Source: Ewingella americana ATCC 33852
Lineage (GTDB): Bacteria > Pseudomonadota > Gammaproteobacteria > Enterobacterales > Enterobacteriaceae
Assembly: GCF_000735345.1 (NCBI RefSeq)
Contig: NZ_JMPJ01000044.1
Coordinates: forward strand, 1-43,293
DNA length: 43,293 bases
Direction: 5' to 3'
The notes below the pieces were generated by a model. The model did not search any database. It saw nothing but the letters and a program-made list of their open reading frames with translations, and was not told where the DNA came from. Of the stretch, positions 20,846 to 43,293 are shown in pieces. Each line of letters starts with the position of its first letter. Position 1 is the stretch's first letter. A program made the translations under genes and the position numbers.

Positions 20846-20849
20846 CGTT

Positions 20850-21395
20850 TTTTTGGGAAAAAGCTGGCAAAAAGGGTTTTGAAATCAACTTTAAGGTCAA
20901 GGTCGTGGGCTCACCGCCCACACTGGCCTTAAGGTCAAAACCTTGCGTTGCCACGCAAACTGGCCCAAAGGGTTTTAAACGAAACCCTTTGGAATCCTGC
21001 GTTTTTTTGCTGCTGGAATATCGAGGCTTCGCAGGGTTGGAATGGACGTGTTTCAGCAGCCACGGTGTTCGTCGCGAAGTGCCGCCGCTTAGGCGGTTCC
21101 CGAATTTCAGGCTTCGAGCCATAGGTCTCGAACCATTCATTCGGCGTCACTTCTGAACGCGACCTACTGGCATTTACACCGTGCCGTTTCAGTGAGGGTT
21201 TTGGTTTACTCCTTCTCCTCTCAGAGGAGAAGGCAGGGATGAGGAGTGGTTCTAAATCACGCTCAATGCAACTCACCCCACACCCCATCCCAACCTTCCC
21301 CTCCTGAAAGGGGAAGGAGTAAAACCGGTTCGCTTCTCCCCCTGGTAAGGGAGGGCTGGGAGGAAATATTGCAGCAAACTCAGTGATTTAAATAA
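20850..21395 (+). repeat. Intergenic hairpin repeat, copy B (interrupted by a nested element)
   Basis: This copy starts in the T run just after the regulator stop. Modules in order: GTGGGC/GCCCAC stem (about 20905-20925); TTGCGT/ACGCAA stem (20943-20958); CCAAAGGGTTT/AAACCCTTTGG stem with loop TAAACG (20965-20992); a conserved block including AGGGTTGGAATGGACGTG (about 21033-21050); CCGCC/GGCGG stem (21082-21096); bulged GGCTTCGAGCC/GGTCTCGAACC stem (21110-21134); a CCGTGCCGTTTCAGTG end block; and, after the nested element, the tail ATTGCAGCAAACTCAGTG also seen in copy D. Open frames across it resemble those in copies C1 and C2 only because the DNA repeats. Confidence 0.88.
21208..21320. mobile_element. 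Nested MITE-like inverted-repeat element in copy B
   Basis: A 113-bp unit with imperfect terminal inverted repeats: left ACTCCTTCTCCTCTCAGAGG (from 21208), right ending GAAAGGGGAAGGAGT (to 21320). Each end can also fold into its own small hairpin. It carries no gene. Copy D runs from the same end block to the same tail without this unit, so it appears to be an insertion. A related C/T-G/A-rich fragment (21334-21363) follows. It is too short to move by itself; any transposase would be elsewhere. Confidence 0.55.
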
Positions 21396-33769: not shown

Positions 33770-33797
33770 GGAACCTGTCCGGCAGAAAATGATTTAC

Positions 33798-33814
33798 ATG
33801 ATAATAATTATCAT
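33798..33814. promoter_or_regulatory. Fur-box-like palindrome before the monooxygenase gene
   Basis: ATGATAATAATTATCAT contains the 7-1-7 core TGATAAT-A-ATTATCA, as in the Fur consensus repeat, centred about 37 bp upstream of the monooxygenase start. It sits in the short unique stretch between that gene and repeat copy C1. Confidence 0.75.
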
Positions 33815-33830
33815 TTGGAGGGGTGGCGGT

Positions 33831-34235
33831 CAATCTTTTGACCGCTTTTAAATTCAACTTCAAGGTTGAAATTGTGGGCACCGGCCCACACCGGCAAGGG
33901 ATGCCGCCTCCACACCGGCCCCAAGGTCAAAACCGTGGGCTCGCCGCCCACACTGCTAAAACCTTGCGTTGCCACGCAAACTGGCCCAGAAGGCGCGTAA
34001 GCGCGCGCCCTCTGGACACCCGCGCTTTTTGTTGCTGGAAGATCGAGGCTGCGCAGGGTTGGAATGGACGTGTTTCGGCGACTTTTGTGATCGCCGCGAA
34101 ATGCCGCCGCTTAGGCGGTTCCCTCGCTGCGGGATTACAACCCGCGTAAAAAGACACGCGGTTTTCCACCTCTTGCTCGGCGTCATTTCTGAACGCGGCC
34201 TATGGGCATTTACACCGAACCGTTTCATTCCAATT
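33831..34235 (+). repeat. Intergenic hairpin repeat, copy C1
   Basis: Same orientation as copy B and more diverged. Modules: two successive GTGGGC/GCCCAC stems (from about 33874 and about 33936), TTGCGT/ACGCAA stem, the variable stem CCAGAAGGCGCG / CGCGCCCTCTGG with loop TAAGCG (33986-34015), the shared AGGGTTGGAATGGACGTG block (about 34056-34073), CCGCC/GGCGG stem (34104-34118), a replaced distal stem GCGGG/CCCGC, and the GGCATTTACACCG end block. The variable stem differs from B in nearly every inner base but still pairs. Confidence 0.85.
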
Positions 34236-34248
34236 CAAAAAACAATCC

Positions 34249-34519
34249 TGAAACTACTGAAACGGCACGGTTGAAATGCCAGTAAGTCGCGTTTAGAAGT
34301 GACGCCGAATGAATGGTTCGAGACCCAAGGCTCGAAGCCTGAAATTCGGGAACCGCCTAAGCGGCGGCACTTCGCGACGAACACTGCGGCCGCTGAAACA
34401 TGTCCATTCCGACCCTGCGAAGCCTCAATCTACCAGCAGCAAAAAACGCAGGATTCCAAAGGGTTTCGTTTAAAACCCTTTGGGCCAGTGTGGGCGGCGA
34501 GCCCACGGTGTTGACCTTA
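34249..34519 (-). repeat. Intergenic hairpin repeat, copy C2
   Basis: Inverted relative to C1, and close to copies A and B in sequence. It contains CCGTGCCGTTTC end block, distal stem GGCTTCGAGCC/GGTCTCGAACC with loop TTG, CCGCC/GGCGG, the shared block, the CCAAAGGGTTT/AAACCCTTTGG stem (34456-34483) and a GTGGGC/GCCCAC stem. C1 and C2 face each other across about 15-30 bp, so the pair forms a large imperfect inverted repeat. Confidence 0.85.
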
Positions 34520-34530
34520 AGATGCAATTG

Positions 34531-34564
34531 AAAAAAAAGGCCGGTCAGCTTTCCCTGACCAGCC
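34531..34564 (-). terminator. Terminator of rnb
   Basis: On the minus strand GGCTGGTCAG / CTGACCGGCC (34555-34564 and 34539-34548) is followed by eight T (34538-34531). Confidence 0.9.
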
Positions 34565-34590
34565 CTTCTAACTATCGCTCAAGCGAAACC

Positions 34591-42418: not shown

Positions 42419-42919
42419 ATGAAAGCATTAAAGACAGTGTTGTTAGCCATCGCGGCAAGTGGTGTGTTGGTTGCCGGTGGTGCGCAGGCAAATAATCTGT
42501 TGAGTTCATTGCAGGACGCAGCCAATCAGCAATTAAACGGCAGTAACGGTGCCACCGCAGGCTCCGGCGCAAATTCAGGTGCTTCTTTGATGTCGTTGCT
42601 CAACGGCAGTGATAGCGCGCTGACCTCGAAAAGCGCCACCAACGTCGCGGGCGTTTTGCAGTACTGCGTGAAGAATAACGTATTGTCGCAAGCCAGCACC
42701 GAGAATGTGAAAGACAAGCTGTTAAGCAAGCTGGGCATCGAAAGCGCCGCTGGCGCACAGAGCCAGGATTACCAAAACGGCCTCGGCGGCTTGCTGCAAA
42801 CCGGCAAAGGGCAGAACGTTGATCTCAACAATTTGGGTAACGGGTTGTCGCAAGTGAAAGAGAAAGTGAAACAAAAAGCCTGTGATGTGGTGTTGAAGCA
42901 GGCGAAATCCTTTATTTGA
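42419..42919 (+). CDS. yjjA: DUF2501 secreted protein, YjjA-like
   Basis: A 166-residue small secreted protein of the DUF2501 family. A signal peptide (MKALKTVLLAIAASGVLVAGGAQA) is followed by a low-complexity Ser/Gly/Asn/Ala region. The conserved part holds AGVLQYCVKNNVLS and a C-terminal KQKACDVVLKQAKSFI, whose two cysteines may form a disulfide in the periplasm. E. coli YjjA is about the same length. I start it at 42419, with GGAG about 7 nt upstream, rather than at 42407, which overlaps that site. Function unknown. Repeat copy D begins right after the stop. Confidence 0.8.
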   Translation: MKALKTVLLAIAASGVLVAGGAQANNLLSSLQDAANQQLNGSNGATAGSGANSGASLMSLLNGSDSALTSKSATNVAGVLQYCVKNNVLSQASTENVKDKLLSKLGIESAAGAQSQDYQNGLGGLLQTGKGQNVDLNNLGNGLSQVKEKVKQKACDVVLKQAKSFI

Positions 42920-42923
42920 TTTT

Positions 42924-43293
42924 TGGGTGTGCGGCCCAATTCCGCTAAGGTCTTGGGCGGCTGCCCAAACCCGCTTTTAAAATCTTTAAATTCAAAACCG
43001 TGCGCTGCCGCCACACCGGCCTCAAGGGGCGCCTATCGCCGCGCCCCTTGAGAATCCCCGGCTCTGAATTGCGCGCTCCGCTCGCTGGGCGGACGTGTTT
43101 CAGGTACACCTGTTCTCCACCGCAAAATGTCGCCGCTTAGGCGGTGCCTTCGCTGCGGGATTCAAGCCTTAGGTCTTGAACCTCTTGCTCAGCGCCATTT
43201 TTGAGCGCGGTTTTGAGGCATTTAAACCGTGCCGTTTCAGTGGGATTTGTCTTGGGGGCGGGTATTGCAGCAAACTCAGTGGTTTAGATTGGG
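42924..43293 (+). repeat. Intergenic hairpin repeat, copy D (most diverged, complete tail)
   Basis: The same architecture with different stem sequences: TTGGGC/GCCCAA stem (about 42952-42967), perfect 12-bp stem CTCAAGGGGCGC/GCGCCCCTTGAG (43021-43052), a GGGCGGACGTGTTTCAGG block replacing the usual GGAATGGACGTG, CGCC/GGCG stem around 43131-43144, the distal stem GGATTCAAGCC/GGTCTTGAACC (43158-43182), the CCGTGCCGTTTCAGTGGG end block, and the tail ATTGCAGCAAACTCAGTG. It lacks the nested element of copy B. It begins a few bases after the yjjA stop, as B begins after its upstream gene, and is cut by the window end. Confidence 0.82.

Follow-up and report, generated by a model that had tools for sequence, protein, structure and literature searches.

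What is the repeat, rich in hairpins, that recurs between the genes of this stretch of Ewingella DNA, and what might a structured element of this kind do where it stands? The window analysed here, 43,293 nucleotides long, is an entire draft contig (G000:C44) of a 4.87-Mb genome. The initial annotation had listed five copies in it, A, B, C1, C2 and D, and all of them are present and related, with the stems quoted for them found in the sequence (see the table below). The count of five held as far as relatedness goes, but C1 and C2 belong together as a single tail-to-tail pair, one arm each, and are not separate copies; likewise, A and D are real copies, but their truncation by the contig ends, a consequence of the window being a whole contig, had been missed. 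B lies between convergent genes and the C pair between two same-strand genes, D starts after the stop of a DUF2501 gene at 42919, and A and C1 face gene starts. In B, the place of the second arm is occupied by an unrelated, CTCC-type hairpin pair, and both arms are present at the orthologous locus L053 of genome G001. A ribonuclease II-like (RNB) gene retains a classic terminator at 34534-34569, just outside arm C2, meaning that at the C site the terminator was not replaced by the element.

Positions of the repeat arms and of the adjoining hairpin pair in the window
Feature	Position	Strand	Parts and basis
A, partial arm cut by the contig start	1..183	-	main stem 107-134; profile match; core match 1-56, cut off at its end
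B, one complete arm	20893..21193	+	profile match; outer tract 20846-20892; outer hairpins 20905-20921 and 20943-20958; main stem 20965-20992; branched core 21044-21164
CTCC-type hairpin pair joined to B	about 21205..21323		self-inverted match
C1, first arm of a complete pair	33958..34229	+	main stem 33986-34015; core 34066-34200
C2, second arm, paired with C1	34256..34523	-	main stem 34456-34483; core 34285-34405
D, one arm beside the contig end	42946..43241	+	main stem 43021-43052; core 43091-43212

The repeat is abundant well beyond this contig. Against its own draft genome, B gave at least 85 blastn matches, with 40 of 101 first-look candidates scored; the own-genome matches correspond to 40 places, and D, found by profile search, brings these to 41. 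A contig end is touched by 22 of the 41 repeat places, suggesting that the draft breaks at the repeat and that neighbouring halves have been lost.

Profile searches of loci from six genomes of the Ewingella genus revealed an organisation that the initial annotation had overlooked: the repeat unit is an inward-pointing arm of ~250-300 bp, and arms are mostly arranged tail to tail, with a + arm and a - arm set apart by some tens of bases, with the inward polarity kept in nearly all loci, arrays included. From the gene side to the inside, an arm has first an outer tract, then one or more outer hairpins of ~6 bp each and a main stem of ~11-14 bp. A linker and a GGACGTGTTTC-like block lead on to the core, where hairpins P3 and P4 sit within stem P1/P2, and a tail follows. 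The arms of one genome sort into a few classes, and several modules come in discrete alternative alleles. The outer tract often holds CAANNT hexamers, and the base composition of 89 such tracts, considered for Rho utilisation, is A 33, C 26, T 26 and G 15%. Ahead of some arms we also observed tandem hexamers (CAACTT, CAAATT, AAGGTC; for example at L010, L046 and L112), in a copy number that varies by locus, and heptamers, GAAGTTT, ahead of an arm at L113. When a complete pair is folded as one strand, the predicted pairing runs mostly from arm to arm, and local arm folds would therefore face competition from it.

The repeat is a real structured family without a match in Rfam at gathering thresholds (window and eight loci searched), and, in keeping with the initial annotation, which recognised no named repeat in it, neither the core nor the arm profile had an nhmmer match to YPAL/RU-2 or RU-3. 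The 12 relaxed Rfam hits fall on the CTCC module and involve microRNA models, at scores well short of gathering, while blastn to YPAL gave weak hits of 16 and 35 nt (E 0.056 and 0.2) that fall outside the arms. Among open-licence papers, searched by title or abstract opening, none describing the repeat was found. Its closest likenesses are instructive all the same. As with REP/BIME sequences (PMC3733652), it is intergenic, present in many copies and built of hairpins in opposite orientations; REP units are given there as 20-40 bp palindromes, in contrast to the 250-300 bp arms with a branched core seen here, which moreover pair two different arm alleles. By eye, no unpaired GTAG or CGTC tag of the REP/BIME kind was seen next to the main stems. 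YPAL/RU-2 of Yersinia (168 bp) and ERIC-type sequences are likewise intergenic palindromic repeats of enterobacteria, and YPAL as printed can also be folded into a long stem with two hairpins inside it, but set against YPAL the unit described here is longer and has a two-arm organisation. A coding origin was rejected, the frames in B and C1 (104 and 108 aa) having no Pfam match and the stems varying with compensation, as was a tRNA or tmRNA, none being present in the window.

The claim that selection acts on structure had been made from the five window copies, which alone would not prove covariation because part of the differences of C1 and D are differences between discrete arm classes. Collecting copies by blastn in this and related genomes, as had been proposed, yielded matches in three genera, and a covariance model was built and searched, with strong covariation and with cores recovered outside the training genus. 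The first core alignment, made from sequence only, comprised 46 cores of the Ewingella genus (48 from the thinning of 102 arms, minus L069+ and L046-), on which we placed the 24 pairs used for covariation scoring. Standard pairs occupy 93.3% of its cells, compared with 87.4% when shuffled and 38-48% when slid, and double-change cells number 81 vs 26.6 in shuffles, though further pair types were no more numerous than in shuffles (441 of 500 as high). Covariance model R1, built from this alignment, recovered cores from Rahnella and from a third genus, none of which had been used in building it. In a larger set of 105 distinct cores from 51 sources, whose alignment is model-fitted and biased towards the model in a way that the 46-core alignment is not, 91.9% of cells pair, vs 74.7% when shuffled and at most 46.6% when slid, with 393 double-change cells vs 136 in shuffles and both-side changes in 21 of the 24 pairs. 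Core covariation is strong by these shuffle and slide controls, which ignore kinship, and its extent across three genera supports the view that the structure has been under selection.

The main stem lies outside R1. Its 103 distinct sequences, of which at least one (L058) is probably a wrongly chosen hairpin, contain 1165 Watson-Crick, 59 A-C, 8 G-U and 7 other cells. Since the search always takes the top-scoring hairpin, shuffled sequence served as the control: upstream of the core, that hairpin scores a median of 28 (12 pairs), vs 15 (8 pairs) after dinucleotide shuffling (a sample of 80 out of 265 upstream stretches), and the presence of a hairpin there is not chance. The non-Watson-Crick cells are mostly A-C on the arm + strand, also when counted by distinct contexts (27 vs 8, p 0.002). 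An A-C on the + strand, the strand continuous with the transcript of the neighbouring gene, is a G-U on the opposite strand. The outer pair of P3 is opposite in bias, being G-U in 93 of 105 cores, and G-U and A-C counts are 13 and 7 in P2, 2 and 6 in P1, 31 and 28 in P4, and 115 and 92 in the outer hairpins, the last counted along with much unrelated sequence. As the helices disagree, we dropped the argument that strand-specific wobble proves which strand works; the strand signal settles neither RNA vs DNA nor the working strand.

Strand signals that favour no single transcript strand would suit an element acting at the DNA level between convergent genes, either as a cruciform or as a binding site for gyrase or another protein that handles positive supercoils, as proposed for BIMEs. 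The location between convergent genes and the near-palindromic character of the arm pairs would suit it too; the arms within a pair, however, are only about 60% identical, poor material for a whole-element cruciform, and a conserved G-U outer pair such as that of P3 is more to be expected of RNA, and we regard a DNA-level role as improbable.

The distribution of the repeat is narrow. Part of B matched by blastn in all six genomes of the Ewingella genus, its own included, and in none of 34 other relatives (40 genomes), and the R1 search, run under stricter filters with 8 candidates per genome scored, had hits in at least 14 genomes out of 392, representing 3 of the 154 genera sampled. Other queries gave matches in 14 of 14 Rahnella genomes and in five of six genomes of the third genus, while in the sixth, G309, the element part of other queries is matched only weakly and in part. 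Rahnella is named as one of the element genera because a region of the Rahnella plasmid pRAZF7 is 100% identical to G339; twelve Rahnella plasmid records match the repeat. An E. coli or phage origin was ruled out by the absence of B matches in the E. coli and phage records searched. In G238 the pair is found at several dozen sites, about 83-93% identical to each other's query, and in arrays of up to seven arms, such as +----- and +++---- (among L137-L156 and L112). With so many highly similar sites and arrays, the expansion in G238 looks recent. L145 and L176 look like two neighbouring elements.

Copy numbers and arrays of this sort introduce the main rival reading, that of a selfish, non-autonomous BIME- or MITE-like repeat whose hairpins would be kept because a putative enzyme recognises them, possibly as single-stranded DNA, and which would survive at gene 3' ends as the least harmful places for insertion. 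The high copy number and the many similar sites and arm arrays of G238 are consistent with it, as are the presence on Rahnella plasmids, the restriction to three sampled genera, the presence and absence inside one genus and the strand bias of main-stem mismatches. Looked at for MITE features, the G238 copies have inverted CTTAAATGGCAATTTT-like sequence in common between their two ends, but no clear target-site duplication was seen by eye. The Y1 transposase of the RAYT family (PF01797, E 0.001), moreover, was found in G002 and G004 but not in G000, G001, G238, G339, G413 or G135, six of eight element-bearing genomes, which leaves a RAYT-driven REP unsupported. Taken with the junction evidence described below, a selfish repeat seems to us a possible though somewhat unlikely account.

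Gene context bears on most of these readings. With neighbours assigned by the longest flanking ORF, convergent genes flank 33 of the 46 Ewingella-genus loci for which both neighbours were assigned (70 examined) and 34 of 51 in the other two genera (53 examined). Counting L109 and L173 once, as they are the same, 66 of 96 distinct places are convergent, and 30 are not, 6 being divergent; orthology links many of the 96. For comparison, about 89 junctions in two stretches of E. coli K-12, each 50 kb long, include 16 convergent ones, and the inputs to the Fisher test were 67 of 97 element places vs 16 of 88 E. coli junctions, a contrast overstated by the inclusion of within-operon junctions in the baseline. 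REPs are likewise described as favouring gene 3' sides and convergent genes (PMC3733652), a further likeness, and one that a selfish repeat would share.

The same junctions can be compared with and without the element. We examined four by eye (L148, L140, L054 and L056), chosen because G238 or G001 carries the element there. At the L148 junction, the gap is 106 bp in G309 and 111 bp in G418, and each contains one long hairpin, with sequence differing between the two and pairing kept; in G238 the element leaves only a few bases before either stop codon, the long hairpin of the relatives being gone, and in G135 there is an array of about 2 kb. At the L140 junction, gaps of 230 and 262 bp in G135 and G417 hold a 10-bp inverted repeat followed by T-rich sequence, the gaps are longer in G309, G418 and G368 (about 1.9, 1.9 and 3.9 kb), and G238 carries the element. 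That the element replaces rather than adjoins the relatives' hairpin at these two junctions argues against a selfish repeat, as does the sharing of L054-junction sites between different genera. In the L054 comparison, which excludes seven further genomes having the junction, the element is present in G004, G413 and G339 and partially in G135; G309 and G418 have one CTCC-type hairpin and G009 an unrelated spacer. In G014 and G022 the genes nearly abut by eye, with almost no spacer, and thus no spacer element is required at this junction. At the L056 junction, G004 and G413 carry the element, G408 and G014 a CTCC-type pair, G238 a classic terminator, G309 and G135 other inverted repeats and G009 other sequence, while in G002 a collapsed element has its two main stems fused into one hybrid hairpin. 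L212 (G002:C7:106100-106700) is a collapsed pair from which the interval between the main stems has gone, with the outer half-stems forming the hybrid hairpin. The CTCC...GGAG hairpin module is itself a second repeat, often found as inverted pairs. It is seen beside B and at L213, L220, L203 and L204, and it occurs at element-less versions of the same junctions in other genera.

Folding is constrained, the arms point inward at a characteristic location, and the element interchanges with other sequences at four junctions. On account of the location and the interchange with other hairpins at the compared junctions, we lean towards a bidirectional 3'-end element, a terminator or insulator for converging genes that would act as folded RNA. 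A transcript running past a stop codon would enter an arm, with its outer hairpins, main hairpin and stem enclosing two hairpins, and would then meet the second arm in the opposite sense. Such a string of stable stems would end transcripts and/or protect their 3' ends, thereby shielding each gene from antisense read-through of the other, and the element would thus serve in place of the plain hairpin that relatives have there. A role of this kind appears to fit both the position and the interchange with ordinary hairpins; action as RNA, and the termination or protection of transcripts, are what we infer. The element shares with bidirectional terminators and hairpin clusters its convergent junctions, where these are found in relatives, but differs from them: it is a dispersed homologous family of much greater length, its single-stranded blocks are conserved and its two arms have diverged. 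An intrinsic terminator with a U tract was rejected as its identity: no canonical one (GC-rich hairpin then U tract) was found above shuffle level inside the arms of B, C and L148, and the terminator-like hits, no more than shuffles give, were placed within a gene, at the edges of arms or at the middle of L148. It has been argued that clusters of hairpins close to stop codons terminate transcription, with a U tract not always needed (PMC8355165). Counting against a 3'-end role are this lack of a canonical terminator in the arms, the nearly abutting genes at the L054 junction in G014 and G022, the 30 places that are not convergent, the gene starts faced by A and C1, main-stem mismatches that are A-C, not G-U, on the transcript-continuous strand, and the choice of the four junctions for carrying an element.

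The branched, covarying core could also belong to a free-standing small RNA gene with its own promoter. A sigma-70-like promoter, however, was found neither within B nor within the L148 pair, the one promoter hit of the C region lies at its outer edge, and the arms are tied to gene ends, in pairs and arrays, making this a very improbable reading. If the 3'-end role is correct, dozens of junctions per genome in three genera would share a modular, covarying 3'-end device in place of the simple hairpins of relatives, and individual junctions would offer a natural series of interchangeable solutions. The insulation of converging genes would be directly testable, as would the question of whether selection keeps long inverted repeats imperfect.

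The last point arises from how the arms evolve. For 15 of the 17 fetched G001 loci there is a counterpart among the fetched G000 loci, and the 16 orthologous arms that could be compared split into 8 with 92-99% identity and 8 with only 61-86%; the 8 diverged arms match another arm elsewhere in the same genome at 84-95%, indicating that element sites persist while arms are exchanged. Identity between the arms of one element averages 61.2% and 60.2% (15 and 13 elements), vs 70.0% and 69.4% when the opposite arms are taken from different elements, which rules out a perfect palindrome. A main-stem allele common to both arms occurs in none of 40 pairs (L025 and L058 having an incomplete stem) and in none of 73 distinct pairs (97 before deduplication), where about 8.2 would be expected from random pairing within five groups; the five group probabilities are 0.108, 0.116, 0.384, 0.153 and 0.162, with a product of about 1e-4. 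Arms may have diverged because two identical ones would make a long and unstable palindrome, yet we only infer such anti-palindrome selection, because descent from one two-class ancestor gives the same pattern without it. In Rahnella, mean within-pair identity is not below random (0.57 vs 0.58), and the arms of pair L217 differ at only four positions. More speculatively, the pairs could represent a new class of bidirectional transcription-end element, a heterotypic dyad with one fold and two arms barred from sharing sequence, in which the fold would be selected while stems diversify (about 100 main-stem sequences), the main hairpin of an arm would work mainly in transcripts coming from the opposite gene and each arm would guard its adjoining gene from antisense read-through; we regard this as doubtful but worth stating. 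A minor feature of the window lies just ahead of the C pair, where GATAATAATTATCATT, at about 33795-33815 upstream of a gene for an FAD-binding oxidoreductase, resembles a Fur box.
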